64,000 nt of DNA, taken from the NCBI RefSeq assembly GCF_900185725.1, contig NZ_FYAU01000014.1, positions 124,001 to 188,000 on the forward strand, given 5' to 3'. This document shows, piece after piece, positions 230 to 27,313 of this stretch. The DNA comes from Stappia sp. TSB10P1A (lineage in GTDB: Bacteria > Pseudomonadota > Alphaproteobacteria > Rhizobiales > Stappiaceae). The first letter of the stretch is position 1; each line of letters starts with the position of its first letter. A model generated the notes under the pieces. That model was not told the origin of the DNA, searched no databases, and saw only the letters and a program-made list of their open reading frames with translations. A program made the position numbers and the translations under genes.

Positions 230-257
230 TTGACACCTCGGGGGTTCACTTTAAGAT
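230..257 (+). promoter_or_regulatory. candidate sigma-70 promoter of the RiPP operon
   Basis: A perfect -35 hexamer TTGACA at 230-235 is followed after 16 bp by TAAGAT at 252-257, which matches four of six -10 positions. It lies at the border of the AT-rich tract and directly before the first permease gene. If real, translation cannot begin at the TTG inside the -35 box. Confidence 0.45.
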
Positions 258-424: not shown

Positions 425-2821
425 GTGTTTCGCGCTGTCGCCGCGAAGCTCCACCGCCAGTGGGTCAGCTTCCTCCTGCTGTTCGTTGTCCTGTCGCTGG
501 CCGTGGCGGTCTGCATCGTCCTCATCGGGGCGATCCGCTATTATTTCGCGCCGGGCCGTCTCGTCGATGCCGACCTGTGGCGCATCGATACGCTCTGGAG
601 TTCCAGCCATTCCGGCGAGAGCGGGCGCTGGGCGACCTCGCCCGATCCGCTGGCCCGGCTGATCCGCCAGGATCACGGGGCGCTGGCGCTTGCCGGCCGC
701 TTCACGCCGCTGCGCTCGCAGCTTGTGGTCGACGACATGTCGCTGCCCGGCGGCGCCGTCTTCCGCAGCGATCCGCCGTCGCTTGCCGTCTTCGACTGGC
801 GGATCCGCCAGGGGGCGCCCGCCATCGACCGGCTCGGGCCGGGCGAGGCGCTGGTCAGCTCCGCCGAGGCCCGCCGCCTGTTCGGCACCCGCGATCCGGT
901 CGGCCAGCGCATCACCCCGGCCCAGCCGGACCGGCGCGGCCGCCGGACGACCTACACCGTCGCCGCCGTGTTCCAGCCTTTCGCCGAAAACGCCGTCTTC
1001 CGTCCCGACGTGGTGCTTGTCGATGCGGTGCCCGGCGCCATCGACCGGGCGCTGCTGCCGGACAGCCTCCGGCAACTGCCGATGGAGTGGCTGCGCCCGA
1101 GCGCCTACACCTTCCTGCGGTTCCGCGGCGAGGGCGGGCGCGAAAAGGCCGGAGCGATCGCCGCCGCGCTGACCGCCCGCGCCCCCTATCTCGGCGGCTG
1201 GACGCCGGAGTTCCGCGCCCGGCCGGCGGCGGCCATCTGGCTGTCGGACGGCGTCTACGAGGAACTCGTGGCGGCGATCCCGCCGGCCTCGGCGCGTCTG
1301 CTGTGGATCGGCGCCGCGGCGCTGGCCGGCGTCGCGCTGGCGGCCTTCGGCTACGGGGCGGGGCTGGCGCGCCTGCAGGTGGCGGAGCTGATGCGCATCC
1401 TCGCCAGCCTCGCGGTGCCGGCGGCGAACGGGCGGGTGGCCCTGGCAGCGCTCGCAGCCGCCGCTGCCGTCGGCGTCTGCGCTGTCGGTGCGCTCGCCGG
1501 CATCGGCCTGTCGCGGCTGGTCGCCGGGCTGCTGCGGCTCGATCCGTCGGCCTTCGCCCTGACGCCGGCCGAGGGGCTGGCGCTGGTCGCCCTCGCCGCG
1601 CCCGCCTTCGTCCTCGTCGCCCTGGTGCCGCTCGCCCGGCCCGACGCCGCTCCGGGTGCCGTCCGGCGCGCCGTGCCCTTGTGGGCGACCTTCGTCGTCT
1701 GCGGCACGGCGGCCGGCCTGTCGCTGGTGCTGGTGCTGCAGCATCTGCATCTCGCCGGCCGCGACAGCGGCCTGTCGCTGGAGCGCACCCTTGCCCTGGA
1801 GGTCGACCAGGACGACGTGCTCGGCGAGCGTCACGAGGCCTTCCGCCAGGAGCTGCTGGCGCTGCCGGGCGTGCGCGAGGTGGGCTTTGCCAAGACGCTG
1901 CCCGGCGCGCTGCACGATTACAGCTATATGGAGCTGCGCGCCGCCACCGACCGCCGCCAGAGCGAGAAGCGCTACCAGGCGCTGGCGGCCGATGCCGGCT
2001 TCCTGCGCTCCATCGGGGTGGAGCCGATTGCCGGCGCGCTGCCCGACAGCAGCAGGCAGGCCCGCGACCAGGTGGTGCTGAACCGCGGCGCGGCGGCCCT
2101 TCTCGGCTTCGCCTCGCCGGACGAGGCCGTCGGCCAGCAGGTGCTCAGCTTCGACGGCGGACCGCAGATCAGCCTGCGGGTGGCGGCGGTGGTGGAGGAT
2201 TTCCGCCTCAACGGGCGCCATATGCCGAGCCCGCCGCTGGTCGTCTATCACGATCCCCGGCTGTTCCGCGTCGCCACGGTGCGCTTCGACGGCGCCGCCG
2301 CGCCGTCCCGCCTTGCCGGCATCCTTCCCGTGTGGTGGCGCCTGTGGCCGCAGGCGACGCCCTCGCGCATCGAGGTCGACGCCTTCTACCGGGCGGCGAA
2401 CCGGCCGGCCGAGGGCGCGGCGCTGCTCGGCCTCGGCGCCTGGCTCGCCACCCTTGCGGTGGTCGGCGGCGCCCTCTTCGCGGTGATCCGCTTCCGCTCG
2501 GTGACCTGCCGCCGCGAACTGGGGCTGCGCCGGCTGCTGGGCGCGACGGCGGTGCAACTCGCTCCGGTCCTCGCCAGCCGGCAGGTCGCGCCGCTGCTGC
2601 TCGCCATGCCGGTGGCCGCCGCCGCCACCGTGCTGCTCGGCGAGGCCTGGCTCTCCGGCCAGGCGGAGCGGATCGCGGTCGCCTCGCCGGCGGTGCTGGC
2701 GACCCTCGGCCTCGGCCTGGTGCTGTCGTCGGCGCTGGCCCTTGCCGCCTGCATCGCCGTCGAACTCCTGCTGATCTCGCGGGGGACCGATCTTGTCGCC
2801 ACAGCCACGGGAGGAACCTGA
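425..2821 (+). CDS. MacB/FtsX-type ABC transporter permease
   Basis: Inner-membrane permease of the MacB/FtsX superfamily, about 798 residues from a GTG at 425. One membrane segment near the N-terminus precedes a large extracytoplasmic domain. Clusters of hydrophobic helices follow near residues 275-440, a second extracytoplasmic domain comes next, and a C-terminal helix group (about 670-790) ends the protein, so this is the duplicated full-length architecture of about 800 residues. It has no ATPase domain; the MacB-class ATPase at 13848 and the HlyD adaptor at 12454 in the same locus are the likely partners, together exporting the peptide. The start is uncertain: the frame is open from 230, ATG 281 is possible, and an ATG at 408 in another frame reads like the usual family N-terminus for a few residues, so a small frameshift near 410-430 cannot be excluded. 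Confidence 0.8.
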   Translation: MFRAVAAKLHRQWVSFLLLFVVLSLAVAVCIVLIGAIRYYFAPGRLVDADLWRIDTLWSSSHSGESGRWATSPDPLARLIRQDHGALALAGRFTPLRSQLVVDDMSLPGGAVFRSDPPSLAVFDWRIRQGAPAIDRLGPGEALVSSAEARRLFGTRDPVGQRITPAQPDRRGRRTTYTVAAVFQPFAENAVFRPDVVLVDAVPGAIDRALLPDSLRQLPMEWLRPSAYTFLRFRGEGGREKAGAIAAALTARAPYLGGWTPEFRARPAAAIWLSDGVYEELVAAIPPASARLLWIGAAALAGVALAAFGYGAGLARLQVAELMRILASLAVPAANGRVALAALAAAAAVGVCAVGALAGIGLSRLVAGLLRLDPSAFALTPAEGLALVALAAPAFVLVALVPLARPDAAPGAVRRAVPLWATFVVCGTAAGLSLVLVLQHLHLAGRDSGLSLERTLALEVDQDDVLGERHEAFRQELLALPGVREVGFAKTLPGALHDYSYMELRAATDRRQSEKRYQALAADAGFLRSIGVEPIAGALPDSSRQARDQVVLNRGAAALLGFASPDEAVGQQVLSFDGGPQISLRVAAVVEDFRLNGRHMPSPPLVVYHDPRLFRVATVRFDGAAAPSRLAGILPVWWRLWPQATPSRIEVDAFYRAANRPAEGAALLGLGAWLATLAVVGGALFAVIRFRSVTCRRELGLRRLLGATAVQLAPVLASRQVAPLLLAMPVAAAATVLLGEAWLSGQAERIAVASPAVLATLGLGLVLSSALALAACIAVELLLISRGTDLVATATGGT

Positions 2822-2890
2822 CGGGGACGGGCCGTCCCCGACCACTGATCTGCGATGAAAGCCGTCCGGCCGGGAGAGCGGGCCGGCCGG
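2822..2890 (+). other. two hairpins between permease and precursor gene
   Basis: A hairpin with 7-bp stem CGGGGAC/GTCCCCG at 2822-2840 starts at the permease stop codon. A second, with 8-bp arms CCGGCCGG at 2866-2873 and 2883-2890, lies 48 bp before the precursor start. Neither has a U-tract. They may be mRNA stabilisers or processing sites that raise the precursor-to-enzyme ratio, or partial terminators. Confidence 0.45.
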
Positions 2891-2938
2891 CGCGAGGGAG
2901 TTTCCCGCATCGACACCAGGATACGGAAGGAGACTGGA

Positions 2939-3166
2939 ATGCAGCATGTACTCGACATCGCGGCCACGTCCGCGCACGCGGCCGTCTACGAAAGCTATAT
3001 CGAGGAGACCGAGCCGATGCTGGCCCGGGCGACCACCAGCGACTGTCTGTCGACCGGCACGACGATCAGCAGCGGCGCCGGCTCCACGGTCGGGTCCTTC
3101 TTCTGCATCGGCTGCATAACCGGCACCGGTGGCTACAACACCGGCTGCAGTAGCTGTCACGAATAG
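2939..3166 (+). CDS. RiPP precursor peptide (thiopeptide/azole-peptide type)
   Basis: This gene encodes a 75-residue substrate peptide. The ATG at 2939 is chosen because a strong ribosome site AAGGAG lies at 2927-2932, six bases upstream; the same frame is open from 2855. Residues 1-31 form an acidic, helical-looking leader containing YESYIEETEPMLARA. Residues 32-75 are the presumed core: 5 Cys (36, 56, 59, 70, 73), 8 Ser and 9 Thr, so half of 44 residues are heterocyclisable or dehydratable, with many Gly and two CxxC pairs, ending in CSSCHE. Such a core suits the neighbouring YcaO, dehydrogenase and LanB enzymes. The leader/core boundary is inferred; cleavage after ARA (31) is one option. 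I know of no close homologue. A small metal-binding protein is the alternative, but the context argues against it. Confidence 0.85.
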   Translation: MQHVLDIAATSAHAAVYESYIEETEPMLARATTSDCLSTGTTISSGAGSTVGSFFCIGCITGTGGYNTGCSSCHE

Positions 3167-3190
3167 GCTGGCGGAGCGGGTCCGGGGACG

Positions 3191-4231
3191 ATGAAGACGA
3201 TGACCGATACCGGCGGTGCCGCGGCCTTTCGCGAAAGAGCCGCTGTCGCGGAGGAGGGCAGCCGGCTGCGCGTCTCCGGGCCTTCCGCCGCGTCCGGGTT
3301 GGCCGTGGAGGGGCTGCGCAAGCGCTATGGCGATCACCAGGCGCTGGACGGGGTCAGCCTCGACTGCCGGCCCGGCACGCTGACCTCGCTGCTCGGGCCG
3401 AACGGCGCCGGCAAGACGACCCTGCTGGAGATCCTCGTCGGGCTGCGCAAGCCCGATGCCGGACGGGCGGAGATCCTCGGCGCGCCCTTTGCCGGCCTGC
3501 CGCTGGAGCATCGGCGCCGGGTCGGCATCGTGCTGCAGACCCAGAGCCTGCCGCCGCTGCTGCGCACCGACGAATATCTGGCGATGGTCCGCAAGGCCTA
3601 TCGCAGCCGCGACCTGCCGTCGGGGCTGATCGAGGCGTTCTCCCTGGATGCGGCATGGAAGAAGCGCATCGGCCAGCTTTCCGGCGGCCAGCAGCGCAAG
3701 CTGGCGCTGGTCGCCGCGCTGGTCGGCGAGCCGGCCGTGCTGATCCTCGACGAACCGACGGCCAGCCTCGATCCCTTCAGCCGGCTGGCCTTCTGGACGG
3801 AGCTGCGGCGGCTCTGCGACCGCAAGACATCACCCTCCGCCATCCTGCTCGCCACCCACGACATGGCCGAGGCGACGGAACTCAGCAGCAATGTGGTGAT
3901 CCTGGAAAACGGCCGCGTGCGCGAAAGCGGCACGCCCGACGAGCTGATTGCCCGCAACGGCGCGCCGCCGCGCCTTGCCGTCGCCGTCACCGATGCCCTG
4001 GCCGCCGAACGGATCCTTGCCGCGCATCCGGCCATGGGCGAGGGCCTGACGCTGGAGCGGGAGCGGGGCGGCGGGACGCGGGCCGTGTTCGACGCGGGTC
4101 TGCTCGACGCGGTGCTCGTCTCTCCCTTGCGCCCGCATCTCGATCTGGCGCGGCTGAGTCAGCGCCGCTCGACGCTGGAGGATGTCTTCGTCGCCCTGCT
4201 CGGGCCGGGCCTGAGGGAGGCGGGACGATGA
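3191..4231 (+). CDS. ABC-2 exporter ATP-binding protein
   Basis: Cytoplasmic ATPase of a drug- or peptide-type ABC-2 exporter, 346 residues. A non-conserved N-terminus of about 35 residues precedes the nucleotide-binding domain, with Walker A GPNGAGKTT, signature LSGGQQRK, Walker B LILDEPT and the switch histidine in LLATHD. The last 90 residues are an accessory C-terminal domain, as in CcmA/NodI-type ATPases. The gene starts 24 bp after the precursor stop and overlaps the permease gene by ATGA, so the pair is translationally coupled. Its likely role is export of, or immunity to, the mature peptide. Export versus immunity cannot be settled from sequence. Confidence 0.9.
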   Translation: MKTMTDTGGAAAFRERAAVAEEGSRLRVSGPSAASGLAVEGLRKRYGDHQALDGVSLDCRPGTLTSLLGPNGAGKTTLLEILVGLRKPDAGRAEILGAPFAGLPLEHRRRVGIVLQTQSLPPLLRTDEYLAMVRKAYRSRDLPSGLIEAFSLDAAWKKRIGQLSGGQQRKLALVAALVGEPAVLILDEPTASLDPFSRLAFWTELRRLCDRKTSPSAILLATHDMAEATELSSNVVILENGRVRESGTPDELIARNGAPPRLAVAVTDALAAERILAAHPAMGEGLTLERERGGGTRAVFDAGLLDAVLVSPLRPHLDLARLSQRRSTLEDVFVALLGPGLREAGR

Positions 4232-5256
4232 ACGCACCGCTGCTCGCCGTGCTGGTGCTGAACAATTTCCGCGAATACCTGCGGGACTTCACCTCCAGCT
4301 TCTTCACCTTCGTGTTCCCGCTGATCTTCGTGGTGATCTTCTTCATGAGCAGTTCCGGCGGCGGGGCGCCGGGGCCGCTGCCGCTGGCGCTTGAGGGCGA
4401 TGTCGGCGCGCCGCAGGCACAGGCGCTGGTCGAGGCGCTGGCGGGCGTTCCCGGCCTGCGCCTGCTGCCGGCGGGACACAAGGCGGCAGGCGTCGTCTCG
4501 GTCGCGGTCGGCGCCGACGACCGTATCCGGCTGGAGGTTTCGGCCGATCCGGCGCTGGCGACCCTGCTGCACACGGCGGTGCTGGCGGCGGCGGGCCGGC
4601 AGGCCGGGCCCTTGCCGTTCGACTACCGGTTCGAGCCGGTGCGCCGCTCCTCCGAACTGGTGCAACTGCTGCCGGCCTTCTTCGCCATGTCGCTGCTGCA
4701 ACTCGGCCTGTTCGGCACCTCGACGCCGCTGTTGCAGCAGCGCGCGCGCGGCGTCTTCCGCCACATGAAGACCCTGCCGATCACTGTCATGCAGATCGTC
4801 GCGGCGCTGCTGGCGACGCGGCTGGCGATCGCCCTGGTGCAGATGGTCGGGCTCTATGCGATCGCGGCCGGTCTCTTCGGGTTCCGCATCGAGGGCAGCG
4901 GCGTGCTCTTCGCCGCGTTGCTGGCGCTCGGCACCGGCTGCTTCGTCGCCATGGGCTTCGCGCTCGGCGGCATCGTCGGCAACCAGCAGGTCGGCGTGCT
5001 GCTGACGCTCGCCATCAACTTCCTGATGCTGAGCTTCGGCAACGTCTTCTTTCAGGTGCCGGGCGACAGCGCCCTGGCGCTGATCTCGAACGCGCTGCCG
5101 ATCACCTATCTGGTCGACGGATTGCGGCTGGCCGCGACCGGCGAGCCGCAGGCCCTGCCGATCGGGCTGATCCTGGCGGTGCTGGCGGGCGCGACGGTGC
5201 TGCTGACGGCGGTGTCCGTCCGTTTCTTCCGGTTCGACATGGGGAGCAGGGCATGA
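4228..5256 (+). CDS. ABC-2 type transporter permease
   Basis: Inner-membrane permease, 342 residues, partner of the preceding ATPase. One N-terminal membrane helix (about 25-45) is followed by an extracytoplasmic region of about 110 residues and then five or six helices from about 155 to the end, the usual ABC2_membrane layout. The ATG at 4228 overlaps the ATPase stop (ATGA). The 3' end lies in a short tandem repeat that creates alternative in-frame ATG and stop combinations. It presumably moves the modified peptide, or clears it from the membrane as self-protection. Confidence 0.88.
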   Translation: MNAPLLAVLVLNNFREYLRDFTSSFFTFVFPLIFVVIFFMSSSGGGAPGPLPLALEGDVGAPQAQALVEALAGVPGLRLLPAGHKAAGVVSVAVGADDRIRLEVSADPALATLLHTAVLAAAGRQAGPLPFDYRFEPVRRSSELVQLLPAFFAMSLLQLGLFGTSTPLLQQRARGVFRHMKTLPITVMQIVAALLATRLAIALVQMVGLYAIAAGLFGFRIEGSGVLFAALLALGTGCFVAMGFALGGIVGNQQVGVLLTLAINFLMLSFGNVFFQVPGDSALALISNALPITYLVDGLRLAATGEPQALPIGLILAVLAGATVLLTAVSVRFFRFDMGSRA

Positions 5257-5286
5257 GGGGGAGCAGGGCATGAGGGAGAGCAAGCC
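5239..5286 (+). repeat. three-copy imperfect 14-17-bp tandem repeat at a gene junction
   Basis: Copies ATGGGGAGCAGGGC (5239), ATGAGGGGGAGCAGGGC (5253) and ATGAGGGAGAGCAAGCC (5270) run directly into the ATG of the next gene at 5287. Each copy carries ATG and purine-rich ribosome-site-like sequence. The array contains the permease stop and supplies the ribosome site of the SpaB_C gene, so copy-number slippage could alter coupling between the two. Confidence 0.7.
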
Positions 5287-6219
5287 ATGACGGGAGCGAA
5301 CGACGCCGCGGCGGCGCATGGCGCGCGCTGGATCTATTTCAAGCTCTATCCCGGCCTGTTCGGCGCCGGTCTCGACCATGTCGTCGCCCATGATCTGGCG
5401 CCGCTCGCCGGGCGCGGCGATGTCGCCAAATGGCATTTCCTGCGCATGATCGACGATGGCGGCCCGCATCTGCGCGTGCGCTTCCTGCCGGCCGATCCGC
5501 ACGCGCGGGAGCCGCTCGCCGCACGCATCGAGCGGGAGCTGCGCACCCTTGCCGATGAACTGCCCTTCACGCCGGAGAGCCCGTTCACGCCGCTGGTCGC
5601 CACCCGCCGGACGGACGGCGCGGCGGCGGCAATGGTGCCGGCTCCCCGCGCCCCCCGTGCTCATGTCCAGCGCGACGCCTACGAGCCGGAGACCGGCAAA
5701 TATGGCCTTGGCGAGATGCTGGAGGCCTGCGAAACCCATTTCCAGGTGTCGAGCGAGATCGCCGCCGCCGCGATTGCCGTGGAGCTGCTGGAGGGCCGCT
5801 CGCGCAAGGGGATCGCGCCGCTGCTGATGGCGCGCTGCGTCCATCTGTTCGAGCTGCCGAGACCCTCGCGCCAGTTCCTCGCCGACTATTGCGACTACTG
5901 GCTGCGCGGCGCCGACCCGGCCGAGGACCATCGCGGCCGCTTCGCCGAACGGATCGCGGATCTGCGCATCCTCCCCTTCGATCCGCTGGATGCGGATGCG
6001 CTGCTCGTCGCTGGCGAACAGGATCTGCTCGCCCGCTGGGAGGCGTCGATCCGCCAGGTGTCGCGCGCCGCCGGGCGGCACTTTGCGCGCAACGACAATT
6101 TCCGCGACCAACTGGCCTTCAACCTCTGCCACCTGATGATGAACCGGCTCGGCTTCCCGGCCACCGACGAAGCCTATCTCGCCTGCCTCGTCGCGGCCTT
6201 CGACCGGGTGCCGGCATGA
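5287..6219 (+). CDS. SpaB_C / thiopeptide-type bacteriocin biosynthesis protein
   Basis: A 310-residue stand-alone SpaB_C domain. The N-terminal block (WIYFKLYPG..., then HFLRMIDDGGPHLRVRF at about 46-62) is the family hallmark. In split LanB systems this domain removes glutamate from glutamylated Ser/Thr to form dehydroalanine/dehydrobutyrine; in thiopeptides a paralogue performs the [4+2] pyridine-forming cycloaddition. Only one such protein is encoded here, and a glutamylating LanB protein (14579) needs an eliminase, so elimination is the simpler assignment. A dual or cycloaddition role remains open. It overlaps the YcaO gene by ATGA. Ribosome-site-like purines come from the preceding tandem repeat. 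Confidence 0.85.
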   Translation: MTGANDAAAAHGARWIYFKLYPGLFGAGLDHVVAHDLAPLAGRGDVAKWHFLRMIDDGGPHLRVRFLPADPHAREPLAARIERELRTLADELPFTPESPFTPLVATRRTDGAAAAMVPAPRAPRAHVQRDAYEPETGKYGLGEMLEACETHFQVSSEIAAAAIAVELLEGRSRKGIAPLLMARCVHLFELPRPSRQFLADYCDYWLRGADPAEDHRGRFAERIADLRILPFDPLDADALLVAGEQDLLARWEASIRQVSRAAGRHFARNDNFRDQLAFNLCHLMMNRLGFPATDEAYLACLVAAFDRVPA

Positions 6220-7556
6220 TCGACGTGTTCGACAAGAGCGCGTTTTCCGCCCGCGTTCCCTGGTCCTCCATCCTCAGCCCCTCCTGCGGCATCGTCCAGA
6301 GCGTGGCGGGTATCGACGACGAGGAACTGGGCGTGCCGGACTTCCGCCGGCGCACCGCGCGCCTGTGCAACGTCTCGCTGGCCTATCCCTGGATCCGCGC
6401 CGGCGACGGCACCAGCACGGCCGAGACCCTGACCGCCGGCAATGGCGGCGACCTGCGCGCCGATCTCGCCTATGTGCGGGCGGTGGCGGAGGCGGCCGAG
6501 CGCTATGCCAGCTCGGTCTTCGACGAGACCGACTACATCCTCGCCAGCGCCCGCGAGCTGGGCTCGGCCGCCCTCGACCATCGCCGCTGGCCGAAATGCA
6601 GTGCTGCGGAGCTCGCCGATCCGCGCTGCCAGCTCCATGCCTTCGATCCCGACCGGCCGATCCGCTGGGTCGAGGGCCACTCGGTGACGCGAGGGCGCAA
6701 GGTCTGGCTGCCGCTGGTGATGTCGCATCTGGTGTTCGAGCTGCTGCCGGGCGAGGCGTTCTGGGCGCCGATCACCACCGGCATCGCGCTGCATGACTGT
6801 CCCTATCGCGCGGCGGTCGCGGCGATCTGCGAGAGCATCGAGCGCGACGCCATCGCGCTCACCTGGATCTGCCGTCTGCCGCTGCCCCGGCTCGTCCTCG
6901 ACGCCGCGCCGCCGCACGAGGTCGGCGAGGCGCTCGCCCGCACCGCGGGCCTGCCGCTGCAGCACCAGTTTTTCGACGCGACCACCGATCTCGGCGTGCC
7001 GACGGTCTATCTGCTGCAGACATACGAGGGCCATCCGCAGCTTGCCAGCTTCGTCGGCTGCAGCACCGAGTTCGACCCCTGGACGGCCTGCGGCAAGGTG
7101 GTGCGCGAGGCCTGCGTCGCGCGCACGGCGATCCCCTATTTCCAGGAGATCCCGGACGATCCGCTGCGCTTCACCCGCCTCGAATTCGGCGCCAGCTACA
7201 TGGGCCGGCCGGAGCAGGCCGGCGCCTTCGACTTTCTCGCCGGTCACGGCCGGGAGAGCCCGATCTCGCGGCTCGCGCCCGGCAGCCAGGTGGATGCGCG
7301 CGAAGAGTTCGACTGGCTCGTCGCCCGGTTCCGGGCGCTCGATTTCGAGCTGACGCTGGTCGACCTCACCACCGACGATCTGCGCGAGCAGGGCTTGAGC
7401 GTCATCCGTGCCGTCACGCCGGACCTGATGCCGCTCGATTTCCTGCCCTCGGCCCGCTACCTCGGCCATGCGCGGCTGCACGACTATCCGCTCAAGGCCG
7501 GCTACGGCCGTTTCGAGCGCGCCGCCGCCAATCCCTATCCCCAGCCCTTCGCGTGA
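6216..7556 (+). CDS. YcaO azoline-forming cyclodehydratase
   Basis: ATP-dependent cyclodehydratase of the TOMM/thiopeptide type, 446 residues, converting Cys (and possibly Ser/Thr) of the precursor to azolines. ATP/Mg-binding glutamate motifs are visible: AEAAERY at about 91-97, ESIERDA at about 206-212, and the later block around CGKVVREA. The C-terminus ends NPYPQPFA, which carries the PxPxP motif typical of azoline-forming YcaO enzymes. It lacks its own leader-binding domain; the E1-like protein encoded immediately downstream should deliver the substrate. The start overlaps the SpaB_C stop by ATGA; the frame is open far upstream but only this start fits. Confidence 0.93.
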   Translation: MIDVFDKSAFSARVPWSSILSPSCGIVQSVAGIDDEELGVPDFRRRTARLCNVSLAYPWIRAGDGTSTAETLTAGNGGDLRADLAYVRAVAEAAERYASSVFDETDYILASARELGSAALDHRRWPKCSAAELADPRCQLHAFDPDRPIRWVEGHSVTRGRKVWLPLVMSHLVFELLPGEAFWAPITTGIALHDCPYRAAVAAICESIERDAIALTWICRLPLPRLVLDAAPPHEVGEALARTAGLPLQHQFFDATTDLGVPTVYLLQTYEGHPQLASFVGCSTEFDPWTACGKVVREACVARTAIPYFQEIPDDPLRFTRLEFGASYMGRPEQAGAFDFLAGHGRESPISRLAPGSQVDAREEFDWLVARFRALDFELTLVDLTTDDLREQGLSVIRAVTPDLMPLDFLPSARYLGHARLHDYPLKAGYGRFERAAANPYPQPFA

Positions 7557-7570
7557 GAGGAACCGACGAG

Positions 7571-8299
7571 ATGGCCGATTTCCTGGCGCCCGCCTCCCCG
7601 ATCTCCGCCCCGGCCGCCGCGCCGGTCCTGCAATGCGTCATCTCCGGCGCCTTCGGGCGCCGGGTACTCGAGGCGCTGCGCGCGGAAGGGGTGGCGATTG
7701 CCGCGGCCGTCGATCTCGACGGCGCGGCCGACCCGGTCGAAGCCCTCTCGGGGCTGCCGGCCGCCGACACCTTGGTGATCCTCGACGTCGACCGGCCGGA
7801 GGTCCTGACGCGGCTGTGGGACCGGCTCGTCGGCAGCGGCTGCCGGCTGCATCTGATCGGCCTCCTGGACGACGGGCTGACCATCGGGCCGCAGTTCCGC
7901 GCAGGCCGGCCGGGCTGTCCGGAGTGTTTCGCCCGCCGCCGCCTTGCCGTGTCGAGCCAGGACGACGCCGGCCGGCTCGACAAGCTGAGCCGCACCTGTC
8001 TGGCGCGCCTGCCGGAGGCGCGGCCGGGCTTTCCGCCCTATCTGCCGGCGCTGGCCGCCAGCGCCCTTGCCGCGCGGCTGCGCCGCCCGCTGGAGGAGAG
8101 CGACGGGCGCTTCCTGCGCTTCCTCACTGACGGCAGCTTCCTGGAAGAGGGGCACCTGCTGGCGCTGCATGGCTGCCGCTGTCGCGGCACTGTCCCCGGC
8201 GGCCGGCGCACCACCCGCCATCTTGCCGCGATGCTCGGCCTGCCCGCCGCGGAGGACGCCGCGCCCGAACCGGAGACCCGGGAGGCGCCGGCATGGTAG
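7571..8299 (+). CDS. E1/ThiF-like YcaO partner (ocin-ThiF-like)
   Basis: A 242-residue protein resembling the E1-like partner of TOMM cyclodehydratases, which presents the leader-bound precursor to YcaO. The N-terminal half has a degenerate Rossmann pattern (CVISGAFGRRVLEAL, then TLVILDVD). A PGCPECFARRR motif in the middle and a CRC near residues 207-209 give a likely structural zinc site, as in many TOMM E1-like proteins. No nucleotide-binding glycine motif is obvious, so it is probably non-catalytic. The start at ATG 7571 is preceded by AGAGG about 10 bases upstream. The end overlaps the next gene by 7 bp. Identification rests on pattern and context. Confidence 0.75.
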   Translation: MADFLAPASPISAPAAAPVLQCVISGAFGRRVLEALRAEGVAIAAAVDLDGAADPVEALSGLPAADTLVILDVDRPEVLTRLWDRLVGSGCRLHLIGLLDDGLTIGPQFRAGRPGCPECFARRRLAVSSQDDAGRLDKLSRTCLARLPEARPGFPPYLPALAASALAARLRRPLEESDGRFLRFLTDGSFLEEGHLLALHGCRCRGTVPGGRRTTRHLAAMLGLPAAEDAAPEPETREAPAW

Positions 8300-10620: not shown

Positions 10621-11546
10621 GCCGGCCCGCCGCACCCGGCATGATGGAGGCCGCCCCGATGCTGCTGGCGGCCGGCGGCCGTCTCTTCCTCATCCCGCGC
10701 GGCACCGCGCCCTATCTCAGGGTCGGCGGCCCGCTGTCGCGCGCCGTGCTGGCGCTGCTCGGCGGGCGCGATCGCGGCGCGGTGCTGGCGGATCTGGCGG
10801 CGGCGGGCGAGCCTTCGGCGGGGGCGCTGCTCTCCGCCGCCGAGGCGCTGATCGCCCGCCATGCGCTGGCGGGCCTGCCGGAGTGCCGCCCGCCCCGCCG
10901 CAGCGGCGCCGTGCTGCTCGTCGCCGGCAGCGTCCTGGCGCTGGCTGCCATCCTCCTGTGTGCCGGCTTCCTCATTGCCCAAGTCGCAGCACCGATGGAG
11001 GCCGGCTTGCCGCTCTCGCTGGCAACGCTCGGCTGGCTGGCGCTCGCCGTGCCGTGCCTCGTTCTGGCGCACGAGGCGGCGCATCTTCTGGTCGCGCGCC
11101 TCTTCGCCGTCAGGCCCTCGGCCATCGGCGTCCATCGCGGGCGCGCCGGCCTGCCGATGCCCTGGCTCGACCTGCGCGAGGCCTGGGGTCTGGCGCCGCG
11201 CGACCACGCGCTGGTGCATCTCGCCGGACCGTTCTGCGACCTGCTGCTGACCGCGCTTGCGGTGCTGCTGCTGTGGGTCGGGGCCGCGCCGGTCGCCCCG
11301 CTGCAGGCGCTCGCGCTCGCCGGCACCGCCTTGCTGCTGGCCAATCTCACGCCCTTCGGCCGCAGCGATCTGGTCGGCGCCTGCCGCGCCACCCGTGCCG
11401 ACCCCGATTACGGTCCCTGCCGCCTGCAGCGGGGCCGGCTCGCCGGTCCGCCCGGCCTGATGCGGTTCGCCCGCCTCTATCTCGCGGTGCTGGCGCTGCT
11501 GCCGGCGCTCCTGTGTCTTGCCGCTCTTTCAAGGATCCTGCGATGA
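10617..11546 (+). CDS. M50-family membrane zinc protease with PqqD-like N-terminus
   Basis: A 309-residue polytopic inner-membrane protein of the site-2-protease family. The zinc motif HEAAH is at about 152-156, followed by AGPFCDLLL and NLTPFGRSD, a version of the N-P-D third-ligand motif. Four or five membrane helices are visible. The first 90 residues are soluble and resemble PqqD-like leader-binding domains of peptide-maturation proteases. Its position between dehydrogenase and secreted VOC protein, with ATGA overlaps at both ends, suggests it removes the precursor leader, coupled to export. It could instead be a regulator-cleaving or immunity protease. Confidence 0.8.
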   Translation: MSRPAAPGMMEAAPMLLAAGGRLFLIPRGTAPYLRVGGPLSRAVLALLGGRDRGAVLADLAAAGEPSAGALLSAAEALIARHALAGLPECRPPRRSGAVLLVAGSVLALAAILLCAGFLIAQVAAPMEAGLPLSLATLGWLALAVPCLVLAHEAAHLLVARLFAVRPSAIGVHRGRAGLPMPWLDLREAWGLAPRDHALVHLAGPFCDLLLTALAVLLLWVGAAPVAPLQALALAGTALLLANLTPFGRSDLVGACRATRADPDYGPCRLQRGRLAGPPGLMRFARLYLAVLALLPALLCLAALSRILR

Positions 11547-12457
11547 AAGCTCTCGTTTCCGTCCTGCTCGGCCTGCTCCTTGCCGTGCCGCCGGCCGCGG
11601 CGCAGCACGCGGTCGTCCCGCCGGGCCTCAGCGGCCCCTCCGCCGGGCCGGTCGCCGGCGCGCGGGAGAATGTCGAGACCCTCGGTTTCGTTCGCATCGC
11701 GGTGGAGGACGTGGCCGCGACCAGCCGCTGGCTGCGCGAGGAGATGGGCTTCACCCCCTGGGAGATCGGCGCGCGCGCCAGCGGCGAAGAGAGCGTCATG
11801 GTGATGCTGTCCTCCGGGCAGAGCGTCGAGTTCTTCAGCCGCCGCCCGTTCTACGAGCGGCTGGAGATGAGCGGCGCGCGCACCGTCGCGCTGGCGCTCT
11901 ATGTGCGCGACATCGGCGCCGCGATGATGGCGCTGGCCGCGAGCGGCGTGCCGACCACCGACATCATTCCGCTGCATGCGGGCGGCGAGACGAGCTACCC
12001 GAAGATGTTCGACCTGCTCTTCATCCGTTCCTTCGACTTTCCCTTGTGGAACTTCAGCTTCGCGCAGCGCGACAACGCGGGCATCGCGGCGGTGCGGGCC
12101 GGCTATCCCGAATATGACGACCGCAAGTGGCAGGAGCACGGCAACGGCGCCGATGGTCTGTCCGAGGTCTGGTTCGGCGTCCGTGACCTCGCGGCGAGCG
12201 AGCGGCACCTCGCCGAACTGGCCCTGGTCGCAAGCGAGGAGCAGGGTAACGAGAAGGGCGAGCGCGTCTATACGCTCAGCGGCATGGTCCTGCGCCTCGT
12301 CTCGCCGGACCATCCCGAGCGCGGCGCGGAGATCGCCCGCCGGATCGAGGCCGGCGGCGAGGGCGCCTTTCACATCGTCTTCCGCTCCGATGCGGGGCGG
12401 GCCTCGCTCGGCGCGCAGGCGATCCCCGGCAGCGAACTCCTGCTGGAGGTGCGATGA
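11543..12457 (+). CDS. secreted VOC (glyoxalase/bleomycin-resistance fold) protein
   Basis: A 304-residue protein with a clear signal peptide (hydrophobic stretch 4-16, AAA-Q cleavage near residue 21), so it is periplasmic. The mature part holds two VOC-type half-domains, the first at about 35-170 (ETLGFVRIAVEDVAATSRWL) and the second at about 185-300 (LSEVWFGVRDLAASERHL). VOC proteins include metal-dependent enzymes and drug-sequestering resistance proteins. A periplasmic copy buried in a RiPP operon suggests peptide binding or immunity, or a metal-dependent modification after export. Function is inferred from context only. Confidence 0.78.
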   Translation: MKALVSVLLGLLLAVPPAAAQHAVVPPGLSGPSAGPVAGARENVETLGFVRIAVEDVAATSRWLREEMGFTPWEIGARASGEESVMVMLSSGQSVEFFSRRPFYERLEMSGARTVALALYVRDIGAAMMALAASGVPTTDIIPLHAGGETSYPKMFDLLFIRSFDFPLWNFSFAQRDNAGIAAVRAGYPEYDDRKWQEHGNGADGLSEVWFGVRDLAASERHLAELALVASEEQGNEKGERVYTLSGMVLRLVSPDHPERGAEIARRIEAGGEGAFHIVFRSDAGRASLGAQAIPGSELLLEVR

Positions 12458-13836
12458 CCCTGCACGAGGCGCCGCGTCCACATCCTGTCGTGCGGCCCGG
12501 GCCGGGAGCCGGGGCCGGGCGCCGCCCTGGAGCCGAGGGCGGTGCGCCGGCGGCCGCCCAGCAGCGGCTGGAGGCGATGGACCGGCCGTTGAAACGGCCC
12601 GTGTGGAAGGGCGCCGCCGCCTGGACCGGCCTGGCCGCGCTCTGCGCCGCGGTGATCGTGCTGGCGGCGACGCGGTTCGACTGGTCCGACGACCGGGTGA
12701 TCCAGGTGGCGCGCGCGGATGTGGTTCTCGACCGGGTCCGCCTCGGTCCCTTCCAGCCGGTGCTGCATGCCACCGGCCAGGTCAAGCCGCGCACCTCCGT
12801 CGCGTTGCAGAACAGCATTTCGGGCCGTGTCGATGCCGTCCATGTCAAGCCGGGCGACCGGGTCAGCGCCGGCAAGCTGCTGTTCGAACTCTCCAATCCG
12901 GAGACGGAGATGAGCTTCTTCACGCTCGAGGTGCAGGTCGCCGAACAGCTCAACGCGCTGACCCAGCGCGAGCAGAGCCTGGAGCGCGGCCGCCAGGAGG
13001 ACGAGCTGGAAGTGCTGCGGCTGACCAACGAGATCGCCGAGCTCCGCATCCAGCTCGAGCGCCGCCGCCAACTGCTGACGCGGGGCCACGACAAGCCCTT
13101 CGAGGTCGACGCGCTGATGCGCCAGCAAACCCATCTGGGTGCCGTTCTGGAAATGCGCGTGGGCATGCTGAAGTCGCGGATCCAGTGGCAGGGCGACCAG
13201 GCGCAGCAGGCAAGGACCCTGTCCGGCAACCTGATGCGCAATCTGGAGACGGCGCGCGCCTCGCTCGACGCGCTGAACATCCGCGCCACCATGGACGGCA
13301 CGCTCTCCGACTTCAGCGTCAAGCGCGGCGAGGTGGTGGAGCGCGGCGCCAACCTCGTCACCCTGTTCGAGCTCGGCACGCCGATCATCGAGGCGGAGGT
13401 CGACGAGATCTATCTCGACCGCCTGTCGATCGGCGACGAGGCGAGCTGGCGCGACGGCGGGGGCGGCTGGCGGGGGCTCAGGGTGCGGCGGATCCTGCCG
13501 GAGGTGATCGACGGCAAGATCACGCTGGAGATGGATTTCGTCGACGCGCCGCCGGACGGGCTCGTCCACGGCCAGCGCCTCGACATCCAGATCCGCACCC
13601 GCGCGCTTGCCGAGGACGTGCTGATCCTCGCCAATGGCGGCTTCCTCGCCCAGACCGGCGGCAACTGGGTCTTCGTGCTGGACGAGGCGAGCGGCCGGGC
13701 GACGCGGGTGCCCGTCGAGATCCTCGCCACCACCCGCGACGAGGTCGCGCTGAAGACCGGCCCCGCGCCGGGCAGCGCGGTCGTCGTCTCCTCCTATCTC
13801 GGCCTTGCCGAGGCCGATTATCTCAGGATCGAGTGA
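12454..13836 (+). CDS. HlyD/MacA-type periplasmic adaptor subunit
   Basis: A 460-residue membrane-fusion protein. A proline-rich cytoplasmic N-terminus (1-48) precedes a single membrane helix (about 55-70), then a lipoyl-type half motif (GRVDAVHVKPGDRVSAGKLL) near 125-145 and a long coiled coil (about 150-275). The second lipoyl half and beta-barrel end near 420. It would bridge the MacB-type permease at 425 and ATPase at 13848 to an outer-membrane channel. No TolC-like protein is encoded here, so a chromosomal TolC is presumably used. The ATG overlaps the VOC stop. Confidence 0.9.
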   Translation: MTLHEAPRPHPVVRPGPGAGAGRRPGAEGGAPAAAQQRLEAMDRPLKRPVWKGAAAWTGLAALCAAVIVLAATRFDWSDDRVIQVARADVVLDRVRLGPFQPVLHATGQVKPRTSVALQNSISGRVDAVHVKPGDRVSAGKLLFELSNPETEMSFFTLEVQVAEQLNALTQREQSLERGRQEDELEVLRLTNEIAELRIQLERRRQLLTRGHDKPFEVDALMRQQTHLGAVLEMRVGMLKSRIQWQGDQAQQARTLSGNLMRNLETARASLDALNIRATMDGTLSDFSVKRGEVVERGANLVTLFELGTPIIEAEVDEIYLDRLSIGDEASWRDGGGGWRGLRVRRILPEVIDGKITLEMDFVDAPPDGLVHGQRLDIQIRTRALAEDVLILANGGFLAQTGGNWVFVLDEASGRATRVPVEILATTRDEVALKTGPAPGSAVVVSSYLGLAEADYLRIE

Positions 13837-13847
13837 GCAGGACGGCC

Positions 13848-14582
13848 ATGCAGATCGAGCTCCATGGGGTTACCAGGCGTTTCCGCAGCCGCAATGTCGA
13901 GACCACGGCGCTGAACGGGTTGTCGCTGGAGATCCCTTCGGGTCAGCTCACCACGGTGATCGGTCCGTCCGGCTGCGGCAAGACGACGATGCTGGCGATC
14001 ATGGGCCTGCTGGAGGCGCCCGACGAGGGCGAGGTGCGCTTCGACGGCGCGCCGGTCTCGCGCCTCGGCCGCCGCCGCCGGCTGGTGCTGCGCCGGGAGC
14101 GGGTGTCCTTCGTCTTCCAGTCGCTGAACCTGATCGAGGAGATCTCGGTTCTGGAGAACGTGGCGCTGCCGGCCCGCTACATGTCGCTGCCGGCGCGCGA
14201 ATGCCGGGCGCGGGCGGAGCAGGCGCTGGAGGAGATGGGCCTCGGCTTTCGCGCGCAGCATTTCCCCTTCCAGCTTTCGGGCGGCCAGCGCCAGCGGGTT
14301 GCCATCGCCCGGGCGCTGGCGATGCGCTCCGACCTGATCCTGGCGGACGAGCCGACCGGCAATCTCGACCGCGACAGCAGCGCCGGCGTGCTGGAGGCGC
14401 TGCTGGCCTGCCGGGCGCGCGGCACCACCGTCGTGCTGGTCACCCACGATCCCGATATCGCCGAACTGGGGGACTTCGTCGTCGAGATGCAGGGCGGCCA
14501 TGTGGTGAACGGGCGGGCCGGGGAGTTGAGCGAGCGCCGCCCCGCCCCGTCCGGGCGCTGGGTCGAGGCGATCGCCACATGA
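13848..14582 (+). CDS. MacB/LolD-class ABC ATP-binding protein
   Basis: A 244-residue stand-alone nucleotide-binding domain. Walker A GPSGCGKTT, signature LSGGQRQR, Walker B LILADEPTGNLD and the switch region LVTHD are intact; the DEPTGNLD form is typical of MacB/LolD ATPases. The partner permease is almost certainly the FtsX-type protein at 425, with the HlyD adaptor at 12454 completing a tripartite exporter whose parts are split to opposite ends of the operon. It starts 11 bp after the adaptor stop and overlaps the LanB gene by ATGA. Confidence 0.92.
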   Translation: MQIELHGVTRRFRSRNVETTALNGLSLEIPSGQLTTVIGPSGCGKTTMLAIMGLLEAPDEGEVRFDGAPVSRLGRRRRLVLRRERVSFVFQSLNLIEEISVLENVALPARYMSLPARECRARAEQALEEMGLGFRAQHFPFQLSGGQRQRVAIARALAMRSDLILADEPTGNLDRDSSAGVLEALLACRARGTTVVLVTHDPDIAELGDFVVEMQGGHVVNGRAGELSERRPAPSGRWVEAIAT

Positions 14583-16750
14583 CGGGGCTCGCCGAGCCAC
14601 GGACAGAGACCGCCGTCGCCGCAGGATGGACGGGGCCGCGCGCTGCCTCCGCCGACATGCTGGTGCTGCGGCTGGCGCCGCTGCCGGCCGAAATCCTCGA
14701 GGACCTCGTCTCGCCCGCCTTCCGCCGGGCACTTGCCGAGGCGGGCAAGGACGATGCGCCGCCTTCCGCCGGCCTTGCCGGCCTCTGGCCTTGCGAACTT
14801 GAGCGGATCTTCGAGGCGCTGCGCGCTCTCGCGCTGGACGCGCGCACGCTCTGGGTGCTGGACGAGGTGCGCGAGCGGCTTGCCCGGCTCGCCGCCACGC
14901 TCGGCAACCCGACCGAGAAGCCCGGCCGCCGGTTCCGCGCGGCGATGCGGCTCTTTCGCTATCTTGCCCGCGTTGCCCACAAGACCAGCCCGTACCAGCG
15001 CTACATGGGCATCGGCATCTGCGGCGGTGAGGGCCGGGCGCGGACGCGGTCGCCCCTGCGCTTCGACCTTTCGAGCCGGGACAGCCTGTCGCAGGAATGG
15101 ATCGCCGTGCTGCGGCACAATCATGCCGATGCGCTCGGCCAAGGCGAGCGGTTCGAACTCGCCGGCGCCCTGTCCCCGGATGGCGACCGGCTGGACGCGG
15201 AGCTGACCAGCCTCGGCCTGACGCGCGGCGCCCTGTGGCAGACCGCCCGGCACCGCAGCTTTCGCCTGCGCCCGCCGATCGACCGGGTGTTTCGCGCCCT
15301 TGCCGGGCGCAGCTTCTCCCTGGCCGAGCTGACGGCGGCATGCCGGGCGCATGGCATCGCCGAGGCGCAAGCTGGCGATCTCGTGCACGGCCTCGTCGAC
15401 CGGGGGCTGGTGCGGCGCTCTCCGGCGACGCCCGGCACGGCGGAGGCGGCGCTTGGCCGAGCCCCCGCTCCGGCGCTGCTGGCCCGTCTTGCCGCCGATC
15501 CGCTGCTGCAGGACGCGCCGAGGCTGCATCGCGACTGCTGGGTCCGGCTGCACGACCAACCGGACTACGACCTTGCCGGCCTCCGCGACCGGGTCTGCCG
15601 GGCGGTGGCGGACCTGTCGATGCCCTCGCCCGAGCACCGGCTGCTGCGCGACCTGTTCCAGGCGCTCGCCCCGCCCGGCGGCGGGGCGATGCTGCTGTCG
15701 CGCTTTGCCGAGGAGATCCAGCAGGTCGGGCCGCAGCTTCTTGCCCGCCTCTGCGATCCGGCGCTGGCCCGCCGCCTTGCCGCCGAAGGGCTCGGCCCCG
15801 GCAGCGGCCATCATCCCTTCTGCGCCCATGTCCAGCCGTTCCGCGAGGACGGCGCGCTGCGGCTGGTGCTCAACGGCACGTTCGACGAGCCGGTCTGGCT
15901 GCTCGCCCGCTACACCCAGGGCGAGGGCGAGGAAGCGGAGGCGATGCGCGGCCATCTGCGCGGCTGGCTGGCGCGGCAGAGCGCGCTGACGGGCGAACGG
16001 TTCGTCGGCCTGTCGCGCGGCAGCGAGGTGAGCAGCCTGCAGCGCCATCGCGGCCTCGTCGACCGCTACCTTGCCGGCTTCGCGCCGCCCGGCGCGGCGG
16101 TGCCGCTGCTGTCGCCGGCGGATTGCCGGGTGTCGCTGGCGCCGGGCGGGCGGCGCCTGCAAGTGGAAGACGGCGAGGGAGGGCTGCTGCGCTTCGTCAA
16201 TCTCGGCAGCGTGCTGCCGTCGCCGGCCTGGGGCCTGCACCACTGGCTGATCCATCTGACCGCCCCCGTCGCGGTCATGCGGCCCGGCCTCGACAAGGGC
16301 TTCGTCGGCGACGAGACGCTGCCCGCGCGCCACCGGCCGCGCGAATATCATGGCGACTGCGTGCTCTTCCGCGAGACCTGGTACGAGACCTCGCAGGATC
16401 TGCTGGACGCGGTCTGGCGCGGGGAGGGCGAGGCGCATCTGCCGACGGTCGGCGCCATGGCGGCGCTCGCCCGCTATTTCCGCGCCCGCGGCATGCCGGC
16501 GCAGGTCTTCGTCGCCCGCAAGCCGGGCATGGACTGGCATGCCAGCAACTCGATGGCCAACCGCCACCGCAAGCCGCAATGGATCGACATCGCCAACCCG
16601 GTCTGCGTCGCCCTGTTGCGCCGGATCCTGCGCGAAAGCCGCACCGTCATGTTCCAGGAGGTGCTTCCCGGCCCGGCCGACCGGCTCGCCCGTGCCGGCG
16701 GCGGCACGCATGCGGCCGAGCTGCATCTGGAGGCGAGCCTGACATGGTAG
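14579..16750 (+). CDS. split LanB: lantibiotic dehydratase N-terminal (glutamylation) protein
   Basis: A 723-residue protein resembling the glutamylation domain of class I lanthipeptide dehydratases and thiopeptide TbtB-like proteins, which transfer Glu from glutamyl-tRNA to Ser/Thr side chains. Visible family-like blocks are HKTSPYQRYMG (134-144, equivalent to the usual TPFG region), a central region with LRDLFQ and GLSRGSEVSSLQRHRG, and a C-terminal block (VFVARKPGMDWHASNSMANR) resembling the lantibiotic dehydratase end. The SpaB_C elimination domain is absent and encoded separately at 5287, which is the thiopeptide/goadsporin arrangement. Overlaps of 4 and 7 bp keep it within the operon. 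Sequence similarity is moderate; genomic context raises confidence. Confidence 0.82.
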   Translation: MTGLAEPRTETAVAAGWTGPRAASADMLVLRLAPLPAEILEDLVSPAFRRALAEAGKDDAPPSAGLAGLWPCELERIFEALRALALDARTLWVLDEVRERLARLAATLGNPTEKPGRRFRAAMRLFRYLARVAHKTSPYQRYMGIGICGGEGRARTRSPLRFDLSSRDSLSQEWIAVLRHNHADALGQGERFELAGALSPDGDRLDAELTSLGLTRGALWQTARHRSFRLRPPIDRVFRALAGRSFSLAELTAACRAHGIAEAQAGDLVHGLVDRGLVRRSPATPGTAEAALGRAPAPALLARLAADPLLQDAPRLHRDCWVRLHDQPDYDLAGLRDRVCRAVADLSMPSPEHRLLRDLFQALAPPGGGAMLLSRFAEEIQQVGPQLLARLCDPALARRLAAEGLGPGSGHHPFCAHVQPFREDGALRLVLNGTFDEPVWLLARYTQGEGEEAEAMRGHLRGWLARQSALTGERFVGLSRGSEVSSLQRHRGLVDRYLAGFAPPGAAVPLLSPADCRVSLAPGGRRLQVEDGEGGLLRFVNLGSVLPSPAWGLHHWLIHLTAPVAVMRPGLDKGFVGDETLPARHRPREYHGDCVLFRETWYETSQDLLDAVWRGEGEAHLPTVGAMAALARYFRARGMPAQVFVARKPGMDWHASNSMANRHRKPQWIDIANPVCVALLRRILRESRTVMFQEVLPGPADRLARAGGGTHAAELHLEASLTW

Positions 16751-17559
16751 GCGCGGCGCGGTGCCTTGCCGCCGGTCTTCTCCTGGCGCTCGCCCAGCCC
16801 CTGCCGGCCCGCTCCGCGTCCGCCGACATCGTCATCCTCGGCGAGGTGCACGACAACCGCGCGACCCATCTGGCGCAGGCCCGCCGCATCGAGGCGCTTC
16901 GCCCGGCCGCGGTGGTGTTCGAGATGCTGACGCCGCAGGCGGCCGAGCGCGTCATGGCCGCCGACCGGGCCGATCCGGCGGCGATCGCCGAGGCCGCGCG
17001 CTGGCACGAGACGCGCTGGCCGCCGTTCGAGCTCTACGCGCCGGTGTTTCTCGCCGCGCGCGAGGCGGCGATCCTCGGCATGGCGGTGACGCGCGAGGAC
17101 GCCCGCAAGGCGATGTTCCTCGGCGCGAACAGGGTGTTCGGGGTGGTGTTCGGGGCGGACGGCGCCCGCTTCGGCCTCGACCTTGCGCTGCCGCCGGACG
17201 AGCAGGGCGCGCGCGAGGCGCTGAAGGCGCGGACCCATTGCGGCGCGCTGCCGCCGGTGCTGCTGCGCGGCTTCGTCGAGGCGCAGCGCCTGCGCGACGC
17301 GGCGCTGGCGCTCTCGGCGCTCTCGGCCTTGGCGACGCATGGTCCGCCGGTGGTGGTGATCGCCGGCCACGGCCATGCCCGCACGGACTGGGGCGTCCCG
17401 CGCCTGATCGCATTTGCCGATCCGCACGTCACCGTCCACTCGGTCGGCTATGTCGAGACGCCGGACGACGCCTCCTTCGACGAAACCGTTCTGGTGCCCG
17501 CGACCCCGCGCGGCGACCCTTGCGGATCGCCTCCGGGCCGCCCTGCAACAGGCCCTTGA
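16744..17559 (+). CDS. ChaN/Tiki-like secreted protein
   Basis: A 271-residue protein with an N-terminal signal peptide (about 1-25) followed by LGEVHDNRATHLAQ and AAVVFEMLTP, the start of the ChaN/haem-binding-uptake fold, and ending with VVIAGHGHARTD near 210-221. The fold is shared by iron-regulated ChaN proteins and by TraB/Tiki-type metalloproteases; the E-x-H and GHGH residues could bind haem or metal. It is the last gene of the RiPP operon, overlapping LanB by 7 bp. Possible roles are immunity, metal capture or proteolysis. The C-terminal 20 residues are low-complexity Pro/Gly. Confidence 0.7.
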   Translation: MVGAARCLAAGLLLALAQPLPARSASADIVILGEVHDNRATHLAQARRIEALRPAAVVFEMLTPQAAERVMAADRADPAAIAEAARWHETRWPPFELYAPVFLAAREAAILGMAVTREDARKAMFLGANRVFGVVFGADGARFGLDLALPPDEQGAREALKARTHCGALPPVLLRGFVEAQRLRDAALALSALSALATHGPPVVVIAGHGHARTDWGVPRLIAFADPHVTVHSVGYVETPDDASFDETVLVPATPRGDPCGSPPGRPATGP

Positions 17560-27306: not shown

Positions 27307-27313
27307 GCCGGCC

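Follow-up and report, generated by a model that had tools for sequence, protein, structure and literature searches.

Peptides that combine azole rings with dehydroamino acids, such as the thiopeptides and goadsporin, are potent, mostly Gram-positive compounds that often enter Gram-negative cells poorly. Here we analyse a gene cluster that probably makes such a peptide, at positions 425-17559 of a 64,000-nucleotide stretch of contig NZ_FYAU01000014.1 from Stappia sp. TSB10P1A (hereafter the window), and set it against the closest described systems. For goadsporin, the sections of PMC5303826 on which we draw give the order of events as azolines, azoles and then glutamylation and elimination, and describe the roles of GodB and GodH, while those of PMC4603692 describe a fused cyclodehydratase and list two families, goadsporin and coryneazolisin, that have LanB-like dehydratases and lack a [4+2] enzyme. 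The micrococcin scaffold TclI, which bears a recognition element (RRE) for ribosomally synthesized and post-translationally modified peptides (RiPPs), is a separate protein that binds the cyclodehydratase and then the dehydrogenase, according to part of PMC10634744. Excerpts of PMC10676384 present carnazolamide, from Chryseobacterium, as a characterised azole and dehydroalanine peptide made with a LanM-type enzyme. Finally, portions of PMC8120280 report many proteobacterial TfuA clusters, TfuA clusters with split dehydratases, and thiopeptide-like precursors in Rhizobium and Herbaspirillum; Paracoccus is absent from its main text.

The cluster lies on the plus strand and comprises 14 genes, including that of the precursor, whose ends mostly overlap or are closely spaced and each of which is open from start to stop without an internal stop codon. 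All 14 are syntenic in a second genome of the same genus (G008), and Ka/Ks ranges from 0.19 to 0.46 across the 13 genes compared with it, the MacB-type ATPase having been left out; this synteny and these ratios confirm the cluster as a real, conserved unit above chance. A predicted sigma-70 promoter (TTGACA-16-TAAGAT, positions 230-257, plus strand) precedes the operon, agreeing at 10 of 12 consensus positions by consensus match only, and both of its hexamers are kept in G008. G+C content is about 70% in the window, and the genome amounts to 5.13 Mb in 64 contigs.

On the basis of gene content, the probable product is a single linear peptide with azol(in)e rings as well as dehydroalanine and dehydrobutyrine, assembled by goadsporin-type logic; its likely function is antibacterial or signalling. 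An earlier note on this DNA, made from the letters alone, had proposed a goadsporin-like azole plus dehydroamino-acid RiPP locus, which both the family matches and the GodF-best profile of the LanB family bear out. The genes it named are all on the plus strand, and YcaO, SpaB_C, nitroreductase, HlyD, MacB ATPase, VOC and ChaN are each matched by family search.

The azoline-forming enzyme is a YcaO cyclodehydratase of the SagD type, found in thiazole/oxazole-modified microcins (6216-7556; PF02624 E 1.6e-55; TIGR03604 7.3e-73, over cut-off), whose C-terminus reads NPYPQPFA, the PxPxP end already recognised in the earlier note. Its E1-like partner (7553-8299) falls below the cut-off of TIGR03882 (7.1e-7) and is recognised by its fold, the model (mean pLDDT 74) matching TruD, McbBCD chain 2 and LynD at E 2.2e-7 to 6.6e-7; C122, C125, C208 and C210 are invariant in 12 sequences and may form a Zn site. 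The third protein (8293-10620, 775 residues) appears to be a fusion of a PqqD/RRE-like domain, a ThiF/E1-like part and a tandem nitroreductase, or SagB dehydrogenase (PF00881 1.2e-12; TIGR03605 1.1e-10, below cut-off). In its model, the RRE-like stretch is built of three strands and then three helices; the ThiF-like part and two nitroreductase-like units follow, and the model as a whole matches the double nitroreductase 3eo7, TruD/LynD, MccB and the cyanobactin oxidase ThcOx. The leader-binding scaffold and the dehydrogenase would, on this model, be one chain in the window cluster, whereas relatives in Bacillus, Sphaerimonospora and Kitasatospora have a nitroreductase-sized protein of about 250-280 residues split off. 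Elsewhere the genome has a single further YcaO match (G000:C49:749041-750069), which is distant from the cluster YcaO (31% identity over 125 residues).

Dehydration is assigned to two further proteins. The stand-alone SpaB_C protein of the glutamate eliminase type (5287-6219) is over cut-off for both PF14028 (3.4e-32) and TIGR03891, and a held-out profile finds it at 5.8e-58. Two motifs invariant in its family, HxRxR and YxPE, have counterparts in alignments to the elimination domains of NisB and 5ehk, and a third, HxxxNRLG, aligns with them below significance. The split LanB N-terminal protein (14579-16750), predicted to glutamylate Ser and Thr, was examined with PF04738 and with held-out profiles that exclude this genus and were scored on 845 frames of the window and loci L009, L003 and L010. 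A profile of 12 homologues finds it at 1e-68, one of three Gram-positive relatives plus two thiopeptide LanBs at 9.5e-19, and one of the two thiopeptide LanBs alone at 4.7e-10. A 14-member profile of the LanB family matches 9jhq at 4.9e-113, aligned over positions 1-797 of 819, followed by 6ec7 at 5.1e-55; we take the former (entry 'Goadsporin biosynthetic protein') to be GodF and the latter (entry 'Lantibiotic dehydratase domain protein') to be TbtB. Domain models thus recover the YcaO, SpaB_C and nitroreductase enzymes postulated earlier, whereas LanB stays below the Pfam cut-off and is recovered by the held-out profile; the split LanB, also postulated, is GodF/TbtB-like by the family and held-out profiles.

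The precursor peptide (2939-3166, 75 residues, 91% identical in G008) has 5 Cys, 8 Ser and 9 Thr in its C-terminal 44 residues, and its frame is the only one in the first 22.5 kb that a search for Ser/Thr/Cys-rich tails selects. Compared with G008, 11.0 of 56.3 synonymous and 9.0 of 168.7 nonsynonymous sites differ (Ka/Ks 0.24), and all five Cys are retained. An alternative start at 2855 was rejected in favour of 2939 because G008 conserves GGAAGGAGA...ATG and has gaps of 4 and 2 bases that disrupt the upstream frame. As in loci L015 and L016, the precursor lies directly ahead of the ABC-2 ATPase gene, and it shares a leader pattern and an SDCLS motif with the precursors of relatives. The pattern, H.[LFV]D[IL]..EE..DC[LA]S, was composed only after the sequences had been inspected; it occurs in 10 of 23,983 short open reading frames, all 10 being precursors ahead of such clusters, and in none across 50 shuffles of that set. 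It is lacking in the second L017 precursor and in those of Bacillus and Sphaerimonospora. The letters of the leader found no match in open-licence papers, and an account in a subscription journal or a supplement is possible.

Three precursor-like arrangements elsewhere deserve mention in their own right. In L024 (14457-15420) and L025 (14456-15429), from Bacillus sp. N13C7 and B. atrophaeus, five tandem precursor-like frames each, with LELFAEELPEQ-like leaders, lie upstream of M50, LanB and SpaB_C genes. In Nonomuraea (L029, 12780-13094), a frame adjoining YcaO, LanB and SpaB_C has a tail with CLST and TGCSSC like that of the window precursor; at a profile E of 3.7 it was not counted as a precursor.

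Leader removal and export have candidates within the same operon. An M50-type intramembrane metalloprotease (10617-11546), with a HEAAH motif and four predicted transmembrane spans, is the candidate leader peptidase and is present in all 11 loci that share the core gene order described below. An ABC-2 transporter is encoded by an ATPase gene (3191-4231; PF00005 3.4e-28) and a permease gene (4228-5256; PF12698 2.1e-20). Furthermore, a HlyD/MacA-type periplasmic adaptor (12454-13836; PF16576 1.8e-11) scores best against the darobactin DarC model NF038010 (1.1e-28, below cut-off) and a MacB/LolD-type ATPase (13833-14582; PF00005 2.3e-34; 90% identical in G008) against the DarD model NF038007 (7.4e-63, below cut-off). 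The putative MacB/FtsX-type permease (425-2821; 80% identical in G008) has eight predicted transmembrane spans arranged as 1+3 twice, the double pattern of four-span FtsX/MacB permeases, which Paracoccus has as two separate genes, and it is likely to be a fused pair of such units. Of the MacB system in the earlier note, the adaptor and the ATPase are matched by family, and the putative permease by topology only. Two further proteins complete the operon. The VOC (glyoxalase-like) protein (11543-12457) is over cut-off for PF13468 (2e-5) and PF00903 (6.2e-5), has a hydrophobic, signal-like N-terminus and is a candidate product-binding immunity protein. The ChaN-like (Cofac_haem_bdg) protein, possibly exported, matches PF04187 at 1.7e-35 when scanned from 16747, and its identity is as the earlier note had it; its ATG lies at 16744 rather than 16747 (16744-17559). 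Among the loci compared, VOC and ChaN matches are confined to this genus, and a periplasmic immunity role for the two is our guess.

Taken together, these parts suggest a pathway in which the leader would be bound by the N-terminal RRE-like domain of the SagB fusion, YcaO and the E1-like protein would cyclise some Cys, Ser and Thr to azolines, and the fused dehydrogenase would oxidise these to azoles. LanB would then glutamylate remaining Ser and Thr from Glu-tRNA and SpaB_C would eliminate glutamate to leave dehydroamino acids. At the membrane, the M50 protease would cleave off the leader. Export across the envelope would fall to the ABC-2 pair, to the MacAB-type set of adaptor, ATPase and fused permease, or to both, and VOC and ChaN may shield the producer in the periplasm.

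Several observations weigh against this interpretation. The window LanB reaches 22 bits against PF04738 (E 5.2e-5) with a cut-off of 28 bits, and alone it matches no solved structure in a PDB search, so that the link to GodF rests on the family profile. The PqqD/RRE-like stretch of the SagB fusion (residues 68-112, E 0.0048) is below cut-off, and the model of the fusion is of modest quality (mean pLDDT 66). The M50 protein has family matches that are weak or below cut-off (PF02163 E 0.012; NF041824 6.8e-8), and Pfam gives no match up to E 10 for the permease at 425-2821. The precursor scores E 0.49 (23,983 short frames) against a profile of 12 other precursors, a score reached or exceeded by 2 of 2000 whole shuffles and by 35 of 2000 shuffles made leader- and core-wise; the NF033482 model ('thiocillin family RiPP') does not match it, and its sole NCBIfam match is a chance-level one to HetR (E 0.15).

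The same enzymes could in principle serve other products. A true thiopeptide, its pyridine-type macrocycle closed by an unrecognised [4+2] enzyme encoded at the cluster or elsewhere, would fit a LanB that is also TbtB-like and the precursors of relatives, of which 3 of 9 scanned are over the NF033482 cut-off (L017 8.3e-9, L024 3.1e-12, L027 7.7e-8) with four more below it. We judge it unlikely, and the comparison with actinomycete loci L071 and L074, which have two SpaB_C proteins each, shows why. The second SpaB_C of L074 is a TbtD homologue (5wa3, 6.9e-81), whereas the first is a distant homologue (best TsrE 3.3e-5, TbtD 1.7e-4), and it is a profile of the first SpaB_Cs of both loci that matches the window protein, at 5.8e-13. 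A TbtD-type profile built from the second ones has no match at E 1 in the window, L009, L003 or L010, and PF14028 matches one protein in the entire genome, the cluster SpaB_C. Because this protein is eliminase-like and the TbtD-type profile is unmatched, the cluster is by its genes not a thiopeptide cluster, and we rejected the thiopeptide membership put forward in the earlier note, no [4+2] pyridine synthase having been found at the cluster. In trees of 24 LanB and 28 SpaB_C rows, the window and G008 sit on a long branch apart from the thiopeptide rows. They group with Pseudomonadota and Dehalococcoidia rows in both, at 100/99 for LanB (13 rows) and at 91/88 for SpaB_C (13 rows, below the starred level); the LanB tree unites them with Pseudomonas and Rosenbergiella at 91/87.

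Peptide aminoacyl-tRNA ligases (PEARLs) are akin to LanB. They add an amino acid, in a tRNA-dependent manner, to the C-terminus of a scaffold peptide, according to part of PMC10979984, and if LanB and SpaB_C carried out other chemistry such as this, the product would be an azole-only peptide. We find this quite unlikely, since a separate SpaB_C with eliminase motifs is kept beside LanB in 11 of 11 core-order loci and the best structural relative of the LanB family is GodF. It is very unlikely that the cluster is decaying or silent and merely hitch-hiking in an accessory region: its presence in 2 of 14 genus genomes only, the variable stretch around it and the long LanB branch would be compatible with decay, but all 14 genes lack internal stops, the Ka/Ks range given above points the other way, and the promoter hexamers are conserved in G008. 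Least probable of all is a hybrid lanthipeptide in which free Cys thiols close onto dehydrated residues; LanB and SpaB_C together make up a class I dehydratase and the core has 5 Cys, yet azole enzymes would use up Cys, and the matches listed for the 14 genes include no LanC-type cyclase, no search for LanC having been made elsewhere in the genome. A linear peptide with azol(in)es and dehydroamino acids is the product that we favour.

Relatives of the cluster were sought in genome contigs by a profile search with a YcaO alignment, from which the best 80 of 235 relatives were considered, so family counts are lower bounds; the single window LanB as query gave no match in such a search. Loci were called with profiles built in this analysis, and L014 came from a separate search. 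The core order of ABC-2 permease, SpaB_C, YcaO, E1, SagB, M50 and LanB recurs in 11 loci besides the window and G008, ten of them in Pseudomonadota (Paracoccus aminophilus pAMI4, P. onubensis in two records, Pseudomonas viridiflava, Rosenbergiella collisarenosi, two Roseivivax, Pseudoalteromonas rubra, and betaproteobacterial and Lysobacterales metagenome-assembled genomes, MAGs) and the eleventh in a Dehalococcoidia MAG. The window departs from it in having VOC, HlyD and MacB ATPase genes between M50 and LanB. Precursors were detected in 8 of the 11; none was found in L026 or in L023, whose contig starts inside the cluster, and the candidates in L021 (E 0.001) and L064 (E 0.004) are weak. Two Bacillus loci, one of Sphaerimonospora and one of Kitasatospora have the same enzymes in other orders.

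A second YcaO accompanies 7 of the 11 core-order loci (L014, L018, L020, L021, L022, L023 and L035) and resembles the TfuA partner of L014 at 55-64% identity, although in six of the seven only its first 62-105 residues precede the end of the locus; the remaining four loci end too soon to judge. TfuA itself was seen in L014 only and has no match in the window or G008, and MoeB is present in 6 of the 11. These sequences suggest that loci with the second YcaO may make thioamides. In the case of L014 (3842-22719, P. aminophilus pAMI4), YcaO-TfuA and MoaD/MoeB predict azole, dehydroamino acid and thioamide in one peptide, and L014-type cores are near-identical in Roseivivax, P. onubensis and the betaproteobacterial MAG. 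Separately, Paenibacillus loci L028, L033 and L043 14251-14744 each have two leader-family frames with YcaO, E1, SagB and M50, and no LanB or SpaB_C match within 21 kb, a possible azole-only branch.

The window is, as far as its sequences go, a divergent branch of this family. Whether all these loci form one unnamed, cross-phylum family of azole and dehydroamino-acid RiPPs, spanning Pseudomonadota and Gram-positives, is in our view an evenly balanced question. Such a family would be marked by the scaffold-dehydrogenase fusion, an M50 leader protease and the lack of a pyridine synthase, with a Gram-negative export module and, in one branch, added backbone thioamides; the window would stand on a long Gram-negative branch of its own, with periplasmic immunity proteins particular to it.

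Within sequenced relatives the cluster is rare. Of 14 genomes of the genus, that of the window among them, 2 are positive with the LanB profile; among 385 genomes of the class only its own is matched over most of the profile, with short parts in four others (G611, G724, G814, G882), and among 398 of the phylum its own plus one short match (G108). These class and phylum searches considered at most two candidates per genome among the rows shown, which limits their sensitivity; a single SpaB_C query matched 1 of the 398 phylum genomes, its own. LanB matches in G028 and G043 covered short parts of the query and were not counted, because their surroundings gave no match at 1e-3 to any other protein of the cluster. 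In the cluster-free congeners G002, G005 and G012, the left-flank match stops at window positions 10-14 and resumes at 41,442 (41,544 in G012), the interval between flank matches being 5.2, 0.35 and 6.2 kb, respectively, so that positions 14 to about 41,442 are an accessory stretch. The flanks of the cluster have no long DNA match in G008, and the cluster therefore has different neighbours in the two congeners. No tRNA was found in the window, and no integrase among the genes scanned, which are part of those in the accessory stretch. DNA at 37-61 kb is best covered by Nitratireductor (80% over 27%), Tistrella and other plasmids, many of them presumably alphaproteobacterial, with three further records at 90-95%.

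The same accessory stretch holds a possible second small-molecule cluster on the minus strand (19701-30528). Its genes encode a CN-hydrolase, a YqcI/YcgG protein like the guanitoxin N-hydroxylase GntA (below cut-off), two spermidine-synthase-like proteins, an Orn/Arg-type decarboxylase, EamA, an OpuAC binding protein, a carbamoyltransferase and a ThiF protein.

If the proposed chemistry is right, compounds from a family made in and exported from Gram-negative cells would come already adapted to that envelope, and such a family would allow study of how a producer with two membranes protects itself. Micrococcin TclI is proposed, in part of PMC10634744, to leave the dehydrogenase; with the scaffold-dehydrogenase fusion it would become possible to examine whether the two reactions, azoline formation and oxidation, alternate even with a scaffold that is unable to leave. 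As LanB lies below the Pfam cut-off, rule-based cluster finders may misfile such loci as plain azole peptides.

Among known systems, goadsporin (Streptomyces; godA-I) is the closest in logic, with azoles made by YcaO and a dehydrogenase and dehydroalanine by a split LanB (GodF) and SpaB_C (GodG). It differs in its fused E1-YcaO protein GodD, for which the window has separate genes (6216-7556 and 7553-8299), and in the peptidase-bearing ABC protein GodB, in whose place the window has the M50 protein; the window in turn has its scaffold fused to the dehydrogenase and a MacAB-type exporter, and the matches listed for the 14 genes include neither GodB nor the GNAT acetyltransferase GodH. The thiopeptides micrococcin and thiomuracin share the azole and split-LanB chemistry, and some relatives' precursors match NF033482, but these peptides use a [4+2] pyridine synthase of the TbtD/TclM type, none of which was found in the window cluster, and micrococcin has a free scaffold, TclI, where the window has a fused one. 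The dehydrazoles, such as carnazolamide, likewise unite azoles and dehydroalanine in a Gram-negative producer, with a LanM-type DUF4135 dehydratase and a nitrile hydratase-like leader peptide instead of the split LanB and different leader of the window, where DUF4135 is not among the listed matches of the 14 genes. In the exporter, the likeness is to DarBCD of darobactin, whose peptide chemistry is unrelated: adaptor and ATPase score best against the DarC and DarD models, far below equivalog cut-offs, and the permease is unmatched. The pAMI4 cluster of Paracoccus aminophilus (NC_022049) is comparable in core order, with YcaO, SpaB_C and LanB 43%, 31% and 27% identical and the leader pattern and SDCLS in common; it has an extra YcaO-TfuA of the thioamide type, MoaD/MoeB and two separate 4-span permeases, and no VOC or ChaN match. 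The earlier note overstated how far the locus stands apart among Gram-negatives, given ten further Pseudomonadota loci with the same core and the proteobacterial thioamide clusters and carnazolamide already in print; what is distinctive is the scaffold-dehydrogenase fusion, the M50 protease and the MacAB-type exporter.

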